64,000 nt of DNA, taken from assembly GCF_002831565.1 (NCBI RefSeq), contig NZ_CP025096.1, forward strand, positions 1-64,000. The letters are read 5' to 3'. Source of the DNA: Spirosoma pollinicola. Lineage in GTDB: Bacteria; Bacteroidota; Bacteroidia; Cytophagales; Spirosomataceae. The notes below the pieces were generated by a model, which worked only from the letters and a program-made list of their open reading frames with translations, made no database searches and was not told the DNA's origin. The translations under genes were made by a program, and so were the position numbers. This document shows, piece after piece, positions 49,608 to 59,665 of the stretch (within the stretch, counting starts at the first letter, position 1; the number at the start of each line of letters is the position of its first letter).

Positions 49608-52430
49608 TCAGGCAAGGGCGCCCGGCGCTGTTACGATCAGGTTAGAGGACTTGCGTTTGCGTCGTTCATGCCAGATAATCAGAATGGCAGCTCCTAGAAA
49701 CGCGAACAATACGCTTACCCATACCATGATACCAAGGCGGGGGAGCGGTTCACTATCGCCCACAATAATCAGCCCTGCCCAGTTATTGGGCAGTTGATTG
49801 ACTCCCTCGGCTGTTTTAAGCCAATCCTGTTTGGCGCGTTGCAGGGCAATATCTTTCGAAAAGCCCTGGTCTAAATAGCTATAAAAGAGATCGGTCAGTT
49901 GATATGTGGCTACATTCTGGACACTCCAAAGTGTTGTCAGTACGCTGGGCACACCTAAAGCCGCAAAGCCTCGCGCCAGACTAAAAATACCCTCTCCCCG
50001 CTGATTGGCCCCAATGCCGGTTTTGCAAGCGGCCAACACCACCAGTTGCGCATTGGGTAGTGCCTCATTGCTCAAGTCCGAGAGTTGAAGGGTAGAATCG
50101 GCGAAGTACAGTTTGGGTTCTTGATCGGTGCTATCGGCGGTAGCGTGTGTGAACAGATGTATAATTCTCGCATTAGCCGCTTTTGACAGAAACGCCTGAC
50201 GTGTGGCAGCATTGTGGGTTAGTAAGGTAGAATTAGTAAACCGGCTGGCAATAGGTACCAAGGCATTATCGGAACCCGGCAAAACGACCTGTTTGAGCGA
50301 AGGTGAAAAATCTACCGGGGCTATTCCTAAAAAATCAATCACATGAAAACCGGCTGTTTGAACCGATTTTTTCTCATTTTTCAGCAACAACCCAACCGAG
50401 TAAACATAACTGAACGCATAGTCATTCATGGCGTAATCTGGTCTGGTAGCTGACCGGCTCAATGCATCGAATGGAACAAAAAAGCCATCGGGAGAAACCA
50501 CTACCCGCCCCTCTGGCAACGACATTGGGCCCAGCAACTGCTGATACAACCCATTACTAAGCGACAGGAATCGAGCCACATCGTTGCGTTTGCTCATGGC
50601 CGTTGGGTTTGATAACAAATTACCAAATTGACGAAGCAACTGGTTGTAGGTCTTGATAGACTGCTTTTTCAGTAGGATTTTTCCGTCCGTAACACCCATC
50701 AGGTATAAAGCACTGTCGCCGACAAAATAGGTAATGAGCGAACCTGACTGTTTTTTCAGGTATTGCTGTACATCAGCGAGTGATGTCGTTGAGTTATCGT
50801 ATTTATATTGATAATAGGCTGGATTTGACGCTTCCAGTTTTTTCAGAAATGTGGTCAGGCTATCCTGTTTGGCAAAGAGAAGAATACGGGCAGCATTATA
50901 AGCTGAACTATTTCCGGGCTCAATACTGGCGAGTTTACTTTGCTGATTATTAACTGATTGCTGCAATAGTTGCTCCTGCGCTACCTGCTCATTCGTAAGC
51001 TTATGCTGTGCACCAAGTTCATTGATCTTATCGGCCAGCATAACGGCCCGACTTTTCTCCAAAAAACGAAATGCCTGTTTTGCATCACCCAGTCGATAAC
51101 AGGTTTCGATTGCCCGTTCGTACATACCCCGGGTTTTCTGCCGCCAGAATAGTTTCGATTGGTCTCCTGTATGTTCCCACCGCATAAAATCAACCATCTG
51201 ATCAGCAACTTTGTAGGTGTCGAGGGCGGCTTTTAACCGGTTGCTGTCACTGTTTGTTGCTTTTGCATAGTCGAGCCAGGTGTCGGCTTTGTCCTGAATT
51301 AGGGTAAAAACATATTCCTTGTATGCAGATGAGCGAATACTGCTAATAGATGGCAAATTATCAATTTTCAACCCATTAAAACCTCCAAAGATAGCACTAA
51401 ACCCACGTTGATACGTTTTCAAGGCTTGCACAAGATTCTTTTTTCGCCAATAAACTGCCCCTAAATTATTGAATGCCCTCGCAGTAATGTAGGGTGCCTG
51501 ACTAAATAGAATTGCCTGAGTTAATACAGTTTCTGCTGCGTCATACTGCCTTAACTCATACAGAAAATAGCCAAAGTCAGTACTATTTGTCGCAATACCG
51601 AGACTATCATTTAGTTGTCTACTAAGCGAAATAGCTTTCTGAAAGTAATGAATGCCTTGCTGGGCTTTTGCCTCCGCTTTGCATACATAGGCGAGAGTGA
51701 CGTAATAGAGAGACAAATCGTATACTAACTCCTGATTATGTTCAGCTATGTATATAGCCCGTTCAAGATCGGGTCTGGTTTCACGCGTGTGCCCTAATTC
51801 ACGTAGTGCTTTAGCTTTTTCGAAAAGGCCATTCGCAACAGCTCTGTCACTATGAACAGATTCTCCAATTCTAATCGCCTGTTCTGCGTGTATTAAAGCT
51901 TTTTCATAGTCGCCCGATTGATATAAGCCGAACGCTAATGTACTATGCATGTAAGAAACCCAACGGCTGTCTGGCCTGTCTCGGCAAGCTACAATACCCT
52001 GCTCCAGATACCTGCGAGCTGATATAAAGTCACCATTATCCTGATAAGAAATACCCAGGCGATGATAAGCCTTTGCCAAAATCTCTGGATTCAGAACAGA
52101 GGCATAGTTTGGGTACAATCGAATTACCTTTTTCAGTAATTGAATAGCTTCTGGCCAGTGTTTATTCTGTGCTACTAGTTTTGCCAACTCAATATGGAGG
52201 TTTACATACAAAGAATCAGGCGGCACACGGTTTTGCTCCCATTGCTTAAGCAGGTGTGGAAGTTTCTTTATTTTTTGATCATTCGATTCGTTTAATACTT
52301 CTTTACATAACGACGCAAGCTCAAACCGGTTCATGGCTTGAGCTTGTAAAAAAGAAGTGCGAATAAGTGACAAAATTACAAAACCGAGCCACAAACATAA
52401 TCGGTACTCATACCTTGATATAGTTACCAT
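49608..52430 (-). CDS. Membrane-anchored TPR-CHAT protease-like protein
   Basis: 940 residues. Signal sequence or first helix at about 8-31 (LCLWLGFVILSLIRTSFLQA). Residues about 40-400 are TPR repeats (AKAYHRLGISYQDNGDF; FNNLGAVYWRKKNLVQALKTY). The CHAT (caspase-like) domain lies at about 640-890 with H762 in HLFTHATAD and C802 in LAACKTGIGANQRGEG, the expected catalytic dyad. A C-terminal membrane helix (WVSVLFAFLGAAILIIW) and a basic tail (ERRKRKSS) follow. Such proteins are predicted proteases. It is the last gene of a sigma/anti-sigma/S8/CHAT operon, and its start overlaps the S8 gene by 23 bp. Whether the CHAT domain is periplasmic depends on the N-terminal segment being a cleaved signal. 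Confidence 0.9.
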   Translation of the reverse strand: MVTISRYEYRLCLWLGFVILSLIRTSFLQAQAMNRFELASLCKEVLNESNDQKIKKLPHLLKQWEQNRVPPDSLYVNLHIELAKLVAQNKHWPEAIQLLKKVIRLYPNYASVLNPEILAKAYHRLGISYQDNGDFISARRYLEQGIVACRDRPDSRWVSYMHSTLAFGLYQSGDYEKALIHAEQAIRIGESVHSDRAVANGLFEKAKALRELGHTRETRPDLERAIYIAEHNQELVYDLSLYYVTLAYVCKAEAKAQQGIHYFQKAISLSRQLNDSLGIATNSTDFGYFLYELRQYDAAETVLTQAILFSQAPYITARAFNNLGAVYWRKKNLVQALKTYQRGFSAIFGGFNGLKIDNLPSISSIRSSAYKEYVFTLIQDKADTWLDYAKATNSDSNRLKAALDTYKVADQMVDFMRWEHTGDQSKLFWRQKTRGMYERAIETCYRLGDAKQAFRFLEKSRAVMLADKINELGAQHKLTNEQVAQEQLLQQSVNNQQSKLASIEPGNSSAYNAARILLFAKQDSLTTFLKKLEASNPAYYQYKYDNSTTSLADVQQYLKKQSGSLITYFVGDSALYLMGVTDGKILLKKQSIKTYNQLLRQFGNLLSNPTAMSKRNDVARFLSLSNGLYQQLLGPMSLPEGRVVVSPDGFFVPFDALSRSATRPDYAMNDYAFSYVYSVGLLLKNEKKSVQTAGFHVIDFLGIAPVDFSPSLKQVVLPGSDNALVPIASRFTNSTLLTHNAATRQAFLSKAANARIIHLFTHATADSTDQEPKLYFADSTLQLSDLSNEALPNAQLVVLAACKTGIGANQRGEGIFSLARGFAALGVPSVLTTLWSVQNVATYQLTDLFYSYLDQGFSKDIALQRAKQDWLKTAEGVNQLPNNWAGLIIVGDSEPLPRLGIMVWVSVLFAFLGAAILIIWHERRKRKSSNLIVTAPGALA

Positions 52431-53862
52431 GCCGAACTCCGTTTTGCAGTTTACGACGATGTTTTACGTTTAATTTACGCATCACTTGTTTCTTCCCGTC
52501 CGCATATCCTTTATGTAAAATACTGGCCACCAACCCTGTAATGTAAGCAGTAGCATATGAAGTACCCGGTCTGGGCTGGAATTTCGGTGCAGAGAACGTG
52601 TGATCATCAATTACAAAGGGAGGACTAGGGTGTCCATTTGCAACAACGCCTACATCAACAAACTGATTTGAATAACATTCACCAATTTTCATATTCGTAA
52701 TCCTGACCTTCCCGTCGGCATCGCTTTTTCTTCTGGTACAACTTATAGTTGTTACGGTTATCACACGATTTTTAGTCTTGTCTCTGCTGTAACAGGCGGG
52801 TAAGTTTAGGGGTGCATTCTGACCAAGTGGCGGTGTGTTTCCTGAAGCATTTTTTATGTACTGGCCTGCATTACCGGCAGCAGCAACCACCCATATGTCA
52901 TCTTTTTTCAGCGCATTCATTATCGTTTTCAATAATGAAATGCTTTTCCCCGGATTAATTCTAAAACTAAAACTAGCGTTAATTATGCGGGCTTTATTGA
53001 CTCGGGCGTATTCTAATCCACATAAAATATCATATAACTCGCAAACGCCGGTATCGTTAGCCGTTTTAACAGGTAGCAATTCAACATCCTTACACGAGTT
53101 CATAATTATTGCACTGATGCGGGTGCCATGCAGTTCAGGGTGACCATCCTCTACGTTTGGTGTGTCATCTACAAAATTCCAACCTGTTGAATAATCACTG
53201 CAAGTCTCTCCTCGACTATATTTTTCGCCCTCTTCACTTGATTGTACCAGTAGCCCTGTGTCTAATACAGCTACTTTAATTGGACAAATGGATTTATACG
53301 TTGCCAAAACGGTAGTAGAACTTCCTCTTTCTTTTTGAACTTCAAGTGGATTGAGCTGCTTAAAATCTCTCAATAAATCTGTAGAAAGCACAGGTCGATT
53401 GAGACCGTAAGCATTTGAGTAGCCTTCACTACTGCCTCGTCCTCCAGTTGGGCCAGGGTGAATTTGTCCAACGATATTACTACCAATGCTAGTTCTTACG
53501 TCCAGTTCGACAAAGTTCGCCATACCACGTAAATCCTTACCTGCAAGCGCCCTAAGTAAGACAAACGTTCGGGCATCGGGCCCACAGTTATTTCTTCTAG
53601 CAACAGTGACAGTAAACGAATGTCCCTCTTTCTCTAATACGTAATTTTCGTTAACTATTAGAAAGTCAAGCGACTGATGTACATCGCTCATAACTATATA
53701 TTCTTCCGGAATCTTAATCAGACCATCCTGAACAATAAATTTCTTCCTGAAAAGATTTTCGGTTACTTGAGCGTCAACGCAACAGACGTCGGCCAGATTT
53801 TCGGGCACAAACGGTACATCAAAATAGGAAGTTGATTGTGGTGTGGGATCAGAGACATTCAT
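52408..53862 (-). CDS. Subtilisin-like S8 serine protease
   Basis: 484 residues with the full catalytic set: D201 in VAVLDTGL, H245 in ELHGTRIS, N331 in AAAGNAG and S435 in GTSYATAYITG. A 190-residue N-terminal region (from FDVPFVPENLADVCCVDA) matches no family I recognise and could be a regulatory or prodomain. No signal peptide or membrane helix is visible, so the enzyme is predicted cytosolic, unusual for subtilases. It is 29 bp after the anti-sigma gene and overlaps the CHAT gene by 23 bp. Base composition looks more AT-rich than the sigma genes, hinting at separate ancestry (by eye). Confidence 0.92.
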   Translation of the reverse strand: MNVSDPTPQSTSYFDVPFVPENLADVCCVDAQVTENLFRKKFIVQDGLIKIPEEYIVMSDVHQSLDFLIVNENYVLEKEGHSFTVTVARRNNCGPDARTFVLLRALAGKDLRGMANFVELDVRTSIGSNIVGQIHPGPTGGRGSSEGYSNAYGLNRPVLSTDLLRDFKQLNPLEVQKERGSSTTVLATYKSICPIKVAVLDTGLLVQSSEEGEKYSRGETCSDYSTGWNFVDDTPNVEDGHPELHGTRISAIIMNSCKDVELLPVKTANDTGVCELYDILCGLEYARVNKARIINASFSFRINPGKSISLLKTIMNALKKDDIWVVAAAGNAGQYIKNASGNTPPLGQNAPLNLPACYSRDKTKNRVITVTTISCTRRKSDADGKVRITNMKIGECYSNQFVDVGVVANGHPSPPFVIDDHTFSAPKFQPRPGTSYATAYITGLVASILHKGYADGKKQVMRKLNVKHRRKLQNGVRHGNYIKV

Positions 53863-53891
53863 GCTTGTTAAGTGGGTTAACTGTTGTGAAA

Positions 53892-54644
53892 CTAGTCTGA
53901 GCTTTTTATAATTTTCTCTGCTTCGCTTTTCCCTTCCAAGTTCTTGGTAATCACCTCATCAAGCAACTTTTTGGCGTTCTCTTTATCCATCGGTCGTCCG
54001 CGCTTGATAAGCACTAGGCTTTCGTAAAATAAACCGGGGTTGCTGATGAGGTCTGTTTGTTGGCTAAGGCGGTGAAACAGGCTAATAGCTTGGTCGTAAT
54101 TACCCTGACGCAGGGAAACAATACCGGCTAATTTTAACGCGCTATCATCATCGGGCTTACGTGTCAACACGTCCTGAAAGATGCCGTCGGCCTCGGCAAG
54201 CTTACCCTCATTGAAGAGCCCAACGCCCAGTTTCACACTGTCAACAGCTGGTGAGCCGGACGTGCCACCGTCCATTGTTGTTGGCAATTGCATGAAATGC
54301 TGAGTCACGTACTCGTCAGTCAAACGGGTTGCCATAACAGCGGAATCAGTTGGACGGAAGAAGGTCCAGCCAAGACCCAACAGGAGGACAATGCTGGCGG
54401 CAGCGGCCCAACGCATTGGCGAACTCCAGAATGGTACTGAAACGATGTTTCGATGCAGGGCATCCAGTTCAGCCTTGCGTTGTTCGAGGGCTTGTTCCCT
54501 CGCCACTTGTTTTGTCAGTGTGTAGAACGCCAGTGCTTCGGTTAAAGCGGGATTGGTGCGCAGCTCGGCCTCAAAACGTGTTCGTTCGTCGGGTGCAAGC
54601 TGGCCGGTTACATAATTTTCGATAATCTCCAGATCAGTGTTCAT
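53892..54644 (-). CDS. TPR membrane protein, candidate anti-sigma factor
   Basis: 250 residues. Residues 1-66 are a charged helical region (IENYVTGQLAPDERTRFEAELR) as in cytosolic anti-sigma domains of Bacteroidota. One membrane helix follows (about 79-97, WAAAASIVLLLGLGWTFF). The outer part (about 135-240) holds TPR-like repeats (GLFNEGKLAEADGIFQDVLTRK, VSLRQGNYDQAISLFHRLS). Its start overlaps the sigma gene stop by 4 bp (ATGA), so they are coupled. No zinc-binding HxxxCxxC motif, so the anti-sigma role is inferred from position and topology, not shown by motif. Confidence 0.75.
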   Translation of the reverse strand: MNTDLEIIENYVTGQLAPDERTRFEAELRTNPALTEALAFYTLTKQVAREQALEQRKAELDALHRNIVSVPFWSSPMRWAAAASIVLLLGLGWTFFRPTDSAVMATRLTDEYVTQHFMQLPTTMDGGTSGSPAVDSVKLGVGLFNEGKLAEADGIFQDVLTRKPDDDSALKLAGIVSLRQGNYDQAISLFHRLSQQTDLISNPGLFYESLVLIKRGRPMDKENAKKLLDEVITKNLEGKSEAEKIIKSSD

Positions 54645-55231
54645 AGTATGTCGCGGAAACGTTCGCGTAATTTTTCCAAACAGCGTAAACGGCTTGTTTT
54701 AGCCACAGCCGCCGAATTATAGCCCATTGCCTGTGCAATTTCGTCGTCAGAATACCCTTCTCCCCAGGACAAGATCATGGCGCGACATTTCTCACCCAAA
54801 TCGTTCAAATGCCGATGCAGCTTTTCTACATCGCTTTCGGCAATGAGTTTCTGCACCACCGAGCGCGCTTCGTCGGGCAGTTGCATCAGCGAATCATCAA
54901 GCGAAAAGGCATCGTGGACACTACTACGCTTAGTCGTCTTTTTACGAATTTCGTCAACACATTTATTCGAAAATATTTGATAGATGTACGTTTTAAGTTC
55001 CGATCGGCCCTCAAAACGATCGCTGCTAATGCTCTCGAACACGGTAAGGATCGTATCAGAATAAACACTGGCGCATTCATCGTCGGAGAGACGATGCTTG
55101 CGAGTGCCATCAGCTATAAAATAGTGGTATTTCTCGTAGAGTTTATTCTCGTAAAGCCGTCGCTCTGAGCCGCCAGCTCGGATACCGGCCATCAACTCAG
55201 CGTCGGAGAGCTGTCGGGAAGGAAGTCGCAT
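54641..55231 (-). CDS. Sigma-70 family (ECF-like) RNA polymerase sigma factor
   Basis: 196 residues. Region 2 (ECASVYSDTILTVFE ... RSELKTYIYQIFSNKCVDEIRK, about 50-95) and region 4 (CRAMILSWGEGYSDDEIAQAMGYNSAAVAKTSRLRCLEKLR, about 148-188) are visible. It fits the Bacteroidota ECF group that lacks a classical N-terminal region 1. It heads the anti-sigma/S8/CHAT block and is preceded by an M50 protease gene 82 bp upstream on the same strand, a set-up expected for regulated intramembrane proteolysis. Confidence 0.9.
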   Translation of the reverse strand: MRLPSRQLSDAELMAGIRAGGSERRLYENKLYEKYHYFIADGTRKHRLSDDECASVYSDTILTVFESISSDRFEGRSELKTYIYQIFSNKCVDEIRKKTTKRSSVHDAFSLDDSLMQLPDEARSVVQKLIAESDVEKLHRHLNDLGEKCRAMILSWGEGYSDDEIAQAMGYNSAAVAKTSRLRCLEKLRERFRDIL

Positions 55232-55313: not shown

Positions 55314-56465
55314 TTACGAAAACATGAAGGGGCGGGGGCTAAAACATAACACAAAGACAATCAAGGCAATCCAGCCCAACACCTGCCGCTTACTATCCAA
55401 TGGTTCCTCCAGTTCTGTTTCGGGATGGTAAATACCCAAGAACCGACCAAGCACAAAGGCAAACGCCAGAAAACCCTGATACCCCTCGATGTCGGGACGC
55501 GCCCACGATAACACCAATTGCGCGGCAACCACACTCAGTGTGACGATCAGGGAAGTCATGCGATTTTCGCTTATGCGCGAAAAAGCCAGGTACAGGACAC
55601 CCATATACAGGCCAAATTTGCCTAGTGCCGAGAAAAATGCTTCGTCGGTTTGCACCGCAAAATCGCTCGGCTTGAACAGGCCCAATCCAGCATAAAACGC
55701 AAACAGGGTAAACAACACAGGTGATACCAAACGAAAGCGTTTATAGCCAATGAGGGCATACATAATATGACCACCATCCAGTTGCCCGATGGGAATGAGG
55801 TTCAGGGAGGTAAAAAACAACGCCAGATACCCTGCCAGCAGGTATGGGTAGTGAATCATTTCATACGCGTGTGGCAAGCGGGCGGGATCGGCAACATGGT
55901 TCTTGAAAAAGTTGAACAATATATTATCGCCCAGCCCCATAGCGGCCCCTTCCGGCAAATGCTGGTAAGCATGTTTGCCATAGTCGAGTCCCCACTTCTT
56001 GTACTCAGGGTGAATGGTAAAGATGAATTCGGGCGGGGGTAAATGTGTGAAGCCGTACCACAGTACAACCAGGGCAAGGGCAAAACCAGCCAGGGGTCCG
56101 GCAATACCGATGTCGAAGTATTTCCGGCGACTGTTGATAAAATCCTGAATCCGGATAAAAGCCCCCAGCGTGCCAATGCTTTGACCAATACCAATCCAGA
56201 GCGGAATATAATAGGGCAACGTAACCCGAACATGATTGGCCCTGGCGGTAAAATAATGGCCAAATTCATGGACGGTCAGAATGGCCAGAAAGGGTACCGA
56301 AAAATTAAATCCAGCCACAAACTCATCCCAGCCGAGGGTTACCATGCCGTCAATTGGAATAAACAACCGGCCAAACATCCACTCGGCTCCGGCCATTGTG
56401 GTTGTAACGAGGGTAATTAAAAAAAGACCTCCATGCAGGAGGTAGGTGCGGGTACTTTTATTCAT
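55314..56465 (-). CDS. Site-2 protease family (M50) metalloprotease
   Basis: 383 residues with about seven to eight membrane helices. Zinc ligands H66-E-F-G-H70 in LTVHEFGHYF and the second-site motif N222 ... D230 in NLIPIGQLDGG are both present, so it is predicted active. S2P enzymes cut substrates inside the membrane, classically anti-sigma factors after a first cut. It precedes the sigma gene by 82 bp on the same strand. Whether its substrate is the adjacent anti-sigma protein is inference. Confidence 0.93.
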   Translation of the reverse strand: MNKSTRTYLLHGGLFLITLVTTTMAGAEWMFGRLFIPIDGMVTLGWDEFVAGFNFSVPFLAILTVHEFGHYFTARANHVRVTLPYYIPLWIGIGQSIGTLGAFIRIQDFINSRRKYFDIGIAGPLAGFALALVVLWYGFTHLPPPEFIFTIHPEYKKWGLDYGKHAYQHLPEGAAMGLGDNILFNFFKNHVADPARLPHAYEMIHYPYLLAGYLALFFTSLNLIPIGQLDGGHIMYALIGYKRFRLVSPVLFTLFAFYAGLGLFKPSDFAVQTDEAFFSALGKFGLYMGVLYLAFSRISENRMTSLIVTLSVVAAQLVLSWARPDIEGYQGFLAFAFVLGRFLGIYHPETELEEPLDSKRQVLGWIALIVFVLCFSPRPFMFS

Positions 56466-57340: not shown

Positions 57341-57985
57341 TTAATTCGCCTGACTGTTCAACTCGCTCAAACAGTTTTTGAGTTCATCCAGGTACCGGCC
57401 ATACAAGCGGTGAATGTACCACCTGAGCATGAAATAAGTAGCGAGTACCGTACCAAGAGCCAGCACGAGTGAGATAACCAGAAAGGGCAAACCAGGATGC
57501 TCTGGCAACACCGAAAATGCAGGATCACTTCGATCATTAGTAGTACCCATGTAGATGCCCAGAATGGCACCTATTATCGCACCTAATGGTATCGCGCTCA
57601 TACAATAGCGATAGTAAGCGCTTACAAATCGATCAACAATAGCCGCGACTTCCTGTATATAGTTTCGAACAGAGCCGGTTGCCTGATTCAGTCGGGCGGT
57701 CAGCCGACGGTATTGCCAGGTAAAGGCAACCACCTGAACAACACTAATAACAACTAAACCCAGGCCCGCCCACCGAAAAATAGTTGAAGACCAGACCGCC
57801 ATCAAAAAGGACAGTACAAGAACAATCACTAACGCGAAAATAACTTCCCAGAGCATGTTTCTAAGAATTCGTTCAATGGCCGAACGAGACCGCTTCCGAA
57901 GCATTGTTTCGAGGTCAGATCCCGACTTGTCAGCAACTTGTTCAAATTGAGCCTGATAGAATACCTTGAATTCGTCGAGTTCCAT
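57341..57985 (-). CDS. Membrane protein of unknown function, sigma factor partner
   Basis: 214 residues. A charged helical N-terminus (MELDEFKVFYQAQFEQVADK ... RSRSAIERILRN, about 1-42) precedes two membrane helices (about 46-85), a loop helix (YRRLTARLNQATGSVRNYIQE), and two more (about 132-150 and 168-190). No known domain. It starts 2 bp after the sigma gene on the same strand, a spacing that argues for function with it, possibly as the cognate anti-sigma factor. The charged N-terminus would face the cytosol. Role is inference. Confidence 0.7.
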   Translation of the reverse strand: MELDEFKVFYQAQFEQVADKSGSDLETMLRKRSRSAIERILRNMLWEVIFALVIVLVLSFLMAVWSSTIFRWAGLGLVVISVVQVVAFTWQYRRLTARLNQATGSVRNYIQEVAAIVDRFVSAYYRYCMSAIPLGAIIGAILGIYMGTTNDRSDPAFSVLPEHPGLPFLVISLVLALGTVLATYFMLRWYIHRLYGRYLDELKNCLSELNSQAN

Positions 57986-57987
57986 CT

Positions 57988-58473
57988 TTAATTCTGTTGT
58001 ACCGTTTGTTTCAATTGCTGCTTGATACGACTCATTTTAACACCCACGTAATTAGGGGTTATACCCAACAATTGCCCAATGGCGGCATAGTCGTAATCAT
58101 CCAGGTAGAGCAGCACAAGTGCCTTATCTATTTTATCCAGTTGCCCAATCGCGGCATATAGCGCAGCAAATTGTGTTTCTGCAAACTCATCATCGAAGTC
58201 AGGGGGTTGTAAAACTGCGTCAAGACCGTCCTGAGACGGTTTTCGTTTTTCGCGACGGAAATGAGAAATGGCCGTATTTAAGCCAATCTGATAGAGCCAG
58301 GTTGAAAAGGCAGCCTCTTGACGGAAATTACGATTCGCCTTCCAGGCGTTTAGCAGAATTTCCTGAAACAGGTCTTGGCGATCTTCCGGTCTATCAGCAT
58401 AGAGGTGACAAACTTTATGGATGATTTTCTGATGCTGGCCGATCTGGCGAACAAACTCCTGCTCTGACAACAT
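57988..58473 (-). CDS. Sigma-70 family (ECF-like) sigma factor
   Basis: 161 residues from the ATG at 58473 (MLSEQEFVRQ); another ATG at 58488 adds five residues. Region 2 (VCHLYADRPEDRQDLFQEILLNAWKANRNF and STWLYQIGLNTAISHFRREKR) and region 4 (KALVLLYLDDYDYAAIGQLLGITPNYVGVKMSRIKQQLKQ) are clear. It overlaps in order with the other sigma block: M50 gene upstream, membrane gene downstream 2 bp away. Confidence 0.92.
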   Translation of the reverse strand: MLSEQEFVRQIGQHQKIIHKVCHLYADRPEDRQDLFQEILLNAWKANRNFRQEAAFSTWLYQIGLNTAISHFRREKRKPSQDGLDAVLQPPDFDDEFAETQFAALYAAIGQLDKIDKALVLLYLDDYDYAAIGQLLGITPNYVGVKMSRIKQQLKQTVQQN

Positions 58474-58501
58474 AAAAAACGATAGCAAGGTCTAAAGTTG
58501 C

Positions 58502-59665
58502 TTAGATTAGGGCATTTTGCCTACTCAAACTAGCCAGTAACTGCTGCCGTAGCCGATCTTCACTGCGAATGGGGTTGGTTGGCAGTGCTGTTACACCTCT
58601 GGTCACCCACTCGTTAATTTGCTCGGTCGATTCTCCCTGGGCACGGGCCAGTGCTGCCCAAAACAAATAACTGTAGGCTGACGGAAATTCATCGGGAGAG
58701 GGTTTGATTTTCGACCAGTTCATCAACGCCAGTTTCACATCTCGATCAATATAGGCGTAGGCAAAGGCCAGTTCTTTCCAGACCTCAATTTTCATCAGGC
58801 TTGGCTGATCATCGAGCAAATCTTCCGCTTTTCTGAGATGATCAAACGCATTCGTCATCTCTTGCCGATCGAGGTAACGATAATAGGCCATGATATGGGC
58901 AAATAGTTGCAACGATGACTCCGGCTCTTTCGTTAACAGGGCTATTTGTTCCTGATTTAGGGTCGCGTAGGGCTGTCCTGACTGGCTATGTACCAGCAAC
59001 TCAAGCGTTGCCTGTTCTACCGCAGCCGGATGTCCACCACCCATAAGGCGCATGAACCGGGCGCGATCTGTAAAGAATGGACCCGTCCGACCAGGAATGG
59101 TTGTTGCCAGAAAAAACATGCTCGAAAACACACCAAAAATCAAGCTAGAACAAACGGCTATACGCGCCACGGCCGACGAATCGGGTGTTAGCGCATTGGC
59201 ACCTACATACCCTAACCAAAGCGTTAATGCACCCATTAGTAAACTAATAAGCGGACCAGCAGCCACAATAGCCGCAAACTTTTTCCGAAGGAAATTATCC
59301 GTTCGAATGGGCACCGTTCCCGATACTCCCCCATAGAGCCCGGCATCCCGATTGAGGTACCATTGTACTTGATCAGTATCGGGATGCCTACGAATTCCCA
59401 ATGGCCCGACAACCAGTATGTAAAACCGAAAGTTAAGCGCCAGCCCCGTAAGCAGGTGACCTAATTCATGCACCAATAAAGCAGCCCAGGCGGCCACCAG
59501 GACGCTCGCCAGCTTTATGGCATCTTCCCAGCCATTACTGGCGTAGGCTATGTTTTTCAGGACAGCCTCGGAAAAGGCGTGTTGTACTACCCATACACCT
59601 CCATAACCGAGAGTTGCTCCGGCAATGGCCACTAACATCATTCGAAATATGTTCTTCTTTTTCAT
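58502..59665 (-). CDS. M50-family metalloprotease with helical C-terminal tail
   Basis: 387 residues. Membrane helices in the first 190, with zinc site H66-E-L-G-H70 (LLVHELGHLLTG) and a further acid D200 in GPFFTDRARF in place of the usual NPxxxxDG motif. After about residue 200 a soluble helical region follows (ESSLQLFAHIMAYYRYLDRQEMTNAFDHL), with TPR-like spacing. Predicted active as a membrane or periplasmic protease, but the altered second motif leaves substrate cleavage mode open. It precedes the sigma gene by 28 bp and follows a small membrane gene by 5 bp. Confidence 0.85.
   Translation of the reverse strand: MKKKNIFRMMLVAIAGATLGYGGVWVVQHAFSEAVLKNIAYASNGWEDAIKLASVLVAAWAALLVHELGHLLTGLALNFRFYILVVGPLGIRRHPDTDQVQWYLNRDAGLYGGVSGTVPIRTDNFLRKKFAAIVAAGPLISLLMGALTLWLGYVGANALTPDSSAVARIAVCSSLIFGVFSSMFFLATTIPGRTGPFFTDRARFMRLMGGGHPAAVEQATLELLVHSQSGQPYATLNQEQIALLTKEPESSLQLFAHIMAYYRYLDRQEMTNAFDHLRKAEDLLDDQPSLMKIEVWKELAFAYAYIDRDVKLALMNWSKIKPSPDEFPSAYSYLFWAALARAQGESTEQINEWVTRGVTALPTNPIRSEDRLRQQLLASLSRQNALI

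Follow-up and report, generated by a model that had tools for sequence, protein, structure and literature searches.

An ECF sigma factor operon of Bacteroidota with a TPR anti-sigma-like protein, a subtilase and a TPR-CHAT protease, and a promoter-like motif associated with it

Genes and predicted topology of the operon

The window analysed here, bases 1-64000 of the 8.79-Mb genome of Spirosoma pollinicola, contains an operon of four genes on the minus strand, which encode an extracytoplasmic function (ECF) sigma factor of 196 aa (54641..55231), an anti-sigma-like protein of 250 aa (53892..54644), an S8 subtilase of 484 aa (52408..53862) and a TPR-CHAT protein of 940 aa (49608..52430). The genes for the sigma factor and the anti-sigma-like protein share an ATGA overlap at 54641-54644, the S8 gene starts 29 bp after the anti-sigma stop codon, and the S8 and CHAT genes overlap by 23 bp. 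An earlier note, made from the sequence alone, had described such a set of overlapping or nearly touching genes on one strand, and all four open reading frames (ORFs) were found where it had placed them. A PADLOC search for known anti-phage defence systems gave only weak partial matches, for TPR, BovA (1.9e-4) and subtilase (2.9e-4), and none for the sigma factor or the anti-sigma-like protein.

We compared the operon across two sets of relatives, which overlap in species. For the family set, we searched one collection of 150 family genomes with all four proteins in turn, and 60 loci were fetched and scored for gene order. The named set comes from a pattern scan over one genome per species, in which 84,980 species gave 81 sigma relatives with 80 kept; the scan requires two conserved peptides, and the relatives counted are not exhaustive. 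Leaders and transmembrane (TM) segments were called with hydropathy rules that we set ourselves.

The sigma factor passes the cut-offs of both the curated model TIGR02937 (sigma70-ECF, 61.6 bits versus 42.9, 6.5e-17) and Pfam Sigma70_ECF (21.8 versus 21.1), which upholds its assignment as ECF-like, and its relatives are 46-81% identical to it (alignment A1). The 250-aa protein has only weak TPR matches in Pfam. It is predicted to consist of cytosolic helices at residues 2-67, as modelled by AlphaFold, one TM segment (80-96) and a periplasmic TPR part (126-250), the last being the only part covered in the PDB list; the NCBIfam anti-sigma models match below cut-off only. The TM segment is present in 63/64 and 79/80 unique copies of the family and named sets, respectively. 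The single-pass TPR protein in anti-sigma position is as first described, and by its position and its overlap with the sigma gene it is a presumed inhibitor of the sigma factor.

The TPR-CHAT protein matches Pfam CHAT (3e-41) and TPR. By Pfam and hydropathy it has a leader (residues ~11-29), the TPR part, a CHAT domain at residues 626-892 (49755..50555 on the minus strand; the family search places it at 49755-50558) and a C-terminal TM segment (~901-919). H762 and C802, the dyad named in the earlier note, are the right residues and invariant in 54/54 rows of the family set and 65/65 rows of the named set, the window included. The leader and the C-terminal TM segment occur together in 43/53 and 59/64 unique copies, and because of them the protein is predicted to be exported and membrane-anchored, with its protease domain facing the periplasm rather than the cytosol. 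Given the predicted topology of the anti-sigma-like protein, its TPR half should lie in the periplasm together with the CHAT domain.

The S8 protein shows both the Asp-His-Ser triad and the subtilase fold (Pfam Peptidase_S8, 7e-19). The triad D201/H245/S435, rightly named in the earlier note, is invariant in 51/51 rows of the family set and 60/60 rows of the named set, the window included; the placement of the protein in the cytosol fits the window copy, which has no leader, but not the whole family. The protein is leaderless in 34/50 and 35/59 unique copies and carries a leader, partly lipobox-like, in 16/50 and 24/59. The window copy and the majority of its relatives should hence be cytosolic, and others lipoprotein-like. 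S8 is also the least conserved part of the operon, with 21-37% identity to the window copy (alignment A3) versus the range given above for the sigma factor. Its N-terminus (residues ~43-125) models as an I9-like pro-domain, a kinship that comes from fold comparison, as Pfam I9 gave no match there, and the pro-domain has a Gly/Pro-rich linker.

Conservation of the gene order and related modules

The neighbourhood search across Bacteroidota that the earlier note had proposed found the order sigma, anti-sigma, S8, CHAT in 47/60 family loci and 56/80 named-set loci. The named-set loci are from Bacteroidota, and the members that we looked up fall into three orders, Cytophagales, Chitinophagales and Sphingobacteriales. 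Five of the 47 order-keeping family loci, of a Larkinella type, have the anti-sigma gene doubled or more. The four-gene arrangement is therefore real and not a product of chance, and the comparison supports a sigma/anti-sigma-like pair that is co-inherited with two catalytically intact proteases.

The remaining 13 of the 60 family loci deviate in several ways. L122 runs off the contig end. The S8 place is occupied by a 194-aa gene in L123 and by other genes in L129, L157 and L159. In L140, S8 and CHAT are encoded divergently to the sigma pair and come after a small gene resembling LytTR proteins. The sigma pair stands alone in L146, L148, L149 and L155, with S8-CHAT on other contigs; L150 has S8-CHAT alone, L153 has S8 without CHAT beside it, and L158 has a sigma/anti-sigma fusion frame alone. 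Outside the family set, a small protein without a catalytic domain takes the S8 place in three Sphingobacteriales loci. We searched 1860 ORFs without an S8 domain with a profile of the pro-domain, and it matched L228 and L229, plus L213, which is cut by the contig end; the similar-looking proteins in the S8 slot of L241 and L123 were unmatched. Sphingobacterium and Olivibacter thus retain the pro-domain alone where S8 would be.

Modules without S8 exist elsewhere in the same family. We fetched 20 CHAT loci outside the operon, two of them from Spirosoma pollinicola, and observed a relative of the sigma factor in 18/20; in 16/20 the anti-sigma-like protein has a relative there too, so that distant relatives of all three proteins lie side by side. 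CHAT in these loci is mostly convergent to the sigma pair, and S8 is present in 0/20. Since such loci mostly keep the sigma pair and never S8, the sigma factor, the TPR anti-sigma-like protein and TPR-CHAT make up a wider core, with S8 restricted to this clade. CHAT thereby follows the sigma pair in independent arrangements.

Upstream of the sigma gene, at a distance of 82 bp, lies a gene for a site-2-protease-like M50 protein (55314-56465, minus strand). We considered it as a fifth operon member and rejected it: a relative is upstream in 6/60 family loci only, adjacent or one gene off, and always next to a HAD gene. Although not an operon member, it could still play a part. The region 57341-59665 of the window contains a second ECF sigma gene (57988-58488, minus strand) followed by a 214-aa membrane protein, and upstream of that sigma gene is a protein (58502-59665, minus strand) with the look of M50 and an HExxH-like motif, judged by eye.

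A promoter-like motif associated with the sigma factor

An over-represented dyad was found in the stretches upstream of 72 non-identical sigma genes. Read in the opposite direction it is TGTTnCC-N16/17-CGACTAA, a form that we take to resemble ECF promoters. Counting sites of identical sequence once, we found 37 distinct sites within the 56 complete operons or at most 1 kb away from them (30 loci) versus 1 in the remaining 696 kb, and 299 shuffled motifs gave at most 2 sites inside the operon zone. Because the motif was discovered upstream of sigma, the independent part of this count is the 26/37 sites outside the 250-bp discovery stretch. The sites are also oriented: those upstream point away from sigma (14/14), and those after CHAT point away from CHAT (16/16), toward the flanking genes. 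Of the 51 distinct sites that fall outside ORFs, 47 lie at most 150 bp from the start codon (ATG) of an ORF of at least 50 aa (median 47 bp, counted without a control).

The motif goes with the sigma factor across genomes. In the 150 family genomes the strict motif occurs in 47/69 sigma-positive versus 6/81 sigma-negative ones (87 versus 7 sites, p=1.7e-15), and the reversed control pattern occurs in 12/69 versus 14/81 (p=1). We scored G025 and G077, whose sigma matches are fragmentary, as positive; G130 and G148, which hold four-gene loci (L160, L161) with a strongly diverged sigma factor, were counted as negative, and neither has a motif site. Within the genus the motif is in 13/13 sigma-positive genomes versus 1/5 (p=0.0016). 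In a class sample of 395 genomes, outside the own family, 2/2 genomes with a strong sigma orthologue (E<1e-60) have it versus 2/388 others (p=8e-5). One of these two others, G234, has six weaker sigma relatives, and four similar genomes have no site; inside the own family, G031 of this sample carries the sigma factor yet lacks a site, and G039, with two sites, lacks the sigma factor. Genomes of the same family are not independent, so these p-values are lower than they should be by an unknown factor; the results within the genus, across the class and on site orientation agree in direction with the family-level association. Sigma-negative genomes, several of which have the paralogous modules, show no enrichment of the motif. 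We also noticed that five class-sample genomes of another family (G150, G234, G453, G474 and G512) have four to eight sigma relatives each, a lineage expansion.

The motif around these operons is a new finding. Our analysis suggests that the sigma factor of the operon reads TGTTnCC-N16/17-CGACTAA, and part of its regulon may thereby be inferable from sequence, a point that the earlier note had missed.

We read 71 distinct strict sites together with their downstream genes and confirmed the following products by family models. Spirosoma pollinicola has a secreted S8 starting 9 bp downstream of a site, a DyP-type peroxidase 44 bp downstream of another (G098 has a second such case), and, 40 bp past a third, a Pvc16-type gene that heads a cluster of sheath, tube (gp19), gp25 and baseplate J genes resembling an extracellular contractile injection system (eCIS). 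In other genomes an M4 protease with emfourin, a vanadium chloroperoxidase and a pesticin/lysozyme-like protein are behind the motif. LytTR regulators follow four sites, by similarity to one confirmed LytTR; S8 is in the gene run behind 6/71 sites, and small secreted proteins are among the motif-led genes as well.

Several further observations concern these genes. In Pedobacter loci L220, L222, L224, L226, L235 and L240, a family of secreted proteins of 130-143 aa comes right after CHAT, each motif-led, and is apparently a conserved target. In the Larkinella-type loci L114, L115 and L117, a small receiver-like gene lies on the opposite strand between the doubled anti-sigma copies, with the motif 27-28 bp upstream of it. 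Secreted caspase-domain (C14) genes and PQQ-propeller-like lipoproteins are at the head of motif-led runs of the type VI secretion system (T6SS) or similar runs in L326, L328 and L359. A truncated CHAT paralogue with stops is in the Spirosoma pollinicola genome at C1:2299018-2299851 (L325), ~10 kb before the motif-led secreted S8.

The T6SS itself may be a recurrent, though not a general, target. A TssC query or relative was found in 44/150 genomes, and 8 strict sites lie at most 15 kb upstream on the same strand in 5/21 sigma-positive genomes (G003, G017, G098, G126 and G143), where 0.033 would be expected at random; the sigma-negative genomes have such sites in 0/23 (genome comparison, p=0.019). 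We read the gene content in G017, G126 and G143, where the motif leads into runs containing TssH, TssK or a caspase-domain gene with T6SS genes after it; the assignment in G003 and G098 is from distance and the first genes, and TssB and some small-protein names are from neighbour similarity or recall. In G017 the T6SS genes adjoin the sigma operon and are divergent from it. We considered and rejected a general control of T6SS and eCIS by the motif: 12 further sigma-positive stretches (10 T6SS, 2 eCIS) gave a one-mismatch site only in the T6SS stretch of G140. No motif site was found in 8 sigma-negative T6SS/eCIS stretches or at the Spirosoma pollinicola T6SS at 967640.

The earlier note had held that finding S8 and CHAT apart from the sigma pair in close relatives would speak against a joint system. 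They are indeed separate in the four loci with a lone sigma pair, yet one split-off pair retains the motif. Arcicella aurantiaca (G052), which additionally holds a complete operon (L147), has one S8-CHAT pair on a different contig from the sigma pair, with the motif 47 bp upstream of its S8. This favours S8-CHAT being part of the sigma regulon and not a mere neighbour, and it is the best single sign that we have of it. By coordinates, G097 also has a strict site on the right strand shortly upstream of a split S8.

A proposed envelope switch and its alternatives

Our computations establish the conserved order of the genes, the catalytic residues, the predicted topology, the enrichment of the motif and its association with sigma; that this sigma factor reads the motif, that the TPR protein inhibits it, who cuts whom and what the input signal is are inferred. 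We propose, with about an even chance of being right, that the operon encodes a dedicated transcription switch of Bacteroidota for envelope signals, with the membrane CHAT protein as the opener of the anti-sigma and S8 as an output made in zymogen form. In the resting state the ECF sigma factor would be kept at the inner membrane by the N-terminal helices of the TPR protein. Upon an envelope signal, the periplasm-facing TPR-CHAT protein would cut or unlock the anti-sigma in a site-1-like step, and the freed sigma factor would read TGTTnCC-N16/17-CGACTAA promoters. Its local targets would be small secreted proteins, LytTR and other regulators beside the operon and, in some species, S8 or S8-CHAT; its remote targets would include secreted S8s, peroxidases, T6SS and, in Spirosoma pollinicola, the eCIS cluster. 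S8 would be produced as a zymogen with its I9-like pro-domain and is likelier to be an output or amplifier than a trigger.

Several observations weigh against this proposal. The strict motif is absent from 22/69 sigma-positive genomes. The 64-kb window has no exact site, and its one-mismatch site at 54090-54120 lies within anti-sigma codons and was rejected as a probable coding coincidence. The whole Spirosoma pollinicola genome has only a small excess, with 3 strict sites versus 1 for the control, and 10 (N17) and 1 (N16) one-mismatch sites versus 6 and 6 for the controls. The operon's own promoter bears the motif in few loci (Sphingobacterium L228), and autoregulation is therefore not general. 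The eCIS link is seen in 1/11 sigma-positive genomes with a similar sheath, and a close eCIS in G114 has no motif. Finally, the window S8 is predicted to be cytosolic and CHAT periplasmic, so the two should not meet in Spirosoma pollinicola.

More tentatively, we speculate that the periplasmic, caspase-fold CHAT could sense danger and release an ECF sigma factor in command of an arsenal: proteases for secretion, peroxidases, an enzyme resembling lysozyme and, in several lineages, T6SS and eCIS, with S8 as a zymogen arm whose pro-domain survives alone in some Sphingobacteriales.

The strongest alternative, which we nevertheless consider unlikely, is that S8 and CHAT are both outputs, serving antagonism, repair or self-killing as effectors that only happen to be encoded in the sigma operon, while a ligand bound to its TPR domain or other proteases would release the anti-sigma. 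The other S8s and the caspase-domain gene behind the same motif would fit this, as would S8-CHAT pairs that are sometimes separate yet motif-bearing; however, the paralogous modules retain CHAT with the sigma pair in other orientations and without S8, an argument for CHAT being central to the signalling. It is less probable still that a cytosolic S8 is the activating or second-step protease, stripping the cytosolic anti-sigma domain from sigma as ClpXP does for RseA. The S8 gene directly follows the anti-sigma gene and its product is leaderless in the window and in most copies, but the copies with a leader, the low conservation of S8 relative to sigma, the three Sphingobacteriales operons without a catalytic S8 and the paralogous modules without any S8 all speak against such a role.

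We find it very improbable that CHAT activates the S8 zymogen by cutting the pro-domain linker, in a cascade for which the sigma pair only sets levels. The I9-like pro-domain with its linker, the lipoprotein-like S8 loci, which would place both proteases in the periplasm, and the pro-domain persisting alone in Sphingobacterium and Olivibacter are in its favour; against it, the leaderless S8 of the window and of most relatives should not meet CHAT, and self-processing is common among pro-subtilisins.

The earlier note had offered type III-E CRISPR systems as a precedent, a parallel that our results do not support in detail. In an excerpt of PMC10028731, cleavage of Csx30 relieves the inhibition of CASP-sigma in the type III-E Craspase. 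In that system, as in ours, genes for a TPR-CHAT protease and an ECF sigma factor occur together, and the logic of TPR-CHAT relieving an anti-sigma would be shared. It differs in being RNA-guided and activated by target RNA, whereas our CHAT has a leader and a TM segment and is accompanied by an extra S8; we saw no RNA-guided partner in the operon, and no genome search for Cas7-11 was made. The III-E analogy fits poorly because CHAT looks exported, which brings its topology nearer to a DegS-like site-1 protease than to Csx29. That the operon is a CRISPR-less derivative of the Craspase (Csx29, Csx30, CASP-sigma) has hardly any probability: it has TPR-CHAT and an ECF sigma factor that the NCBIfam III-E model NF041236 matches, but at 41.9 bits versus a cut-off of 100, among 61 matching sigma models listed, and a membrane TPR anti-sigma stands where Csx30 would be, beside an exported CHAT. 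In a search of the PDB list for sequence kinship with Csx29, the best 60 of 208 rows are TPR proteins. Chance neighbours or an annotation artefact are refuted by an order that is conserved over three orders while the flanks change, and no point in their favour was found.

A close known parallel is the cascade of RseA, DegS, RseP and ClpXP, and of RsiW, as described in the same excerpt of PMC10028731. Both designs have an ECF sigma factor, a single-pass membrane anti-sigma-like protein and a protease that is predicted on the periplasmic side. Here, however, the operon itself encodes the candidate site-1 protease, a TPR-CHAT protein anchored in the membrane, the anti-sigma has TPR as its periplasmic part, an S8 zymogen is added, and no site-2 protease is conserved in this operon. 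A sigma/anti-sigma pair of Bacteroides induced by BcpT likewise responds to a toxin or envelope stress, according to an excerpt of PMC9308784; its dual-membrane-spanning anti-sigma crosses the periplasm with an outer-membrane barrel, and that excerpt describes no CHAT or S8. A literature search of open-licence papers found no description of a Bacteroidota sigma/CHAT/S8 operon.

In defence systems, CHAT proteases are known for cleaving effectors. If our proposal is true, an exported membrane CHAT encoded with a sigma factor would join caspase-like proteolysis to classical envelope-stress signalling. The motif provides a concrete, testable candidate promoter of the sigma factor. Through it, genes of Bacteroidota become candidates for the regulon, among them weapon systems about whose control in this phylum little is known. 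What began as two proteases behind a sigma factor has thus become a question that experiments can answer.

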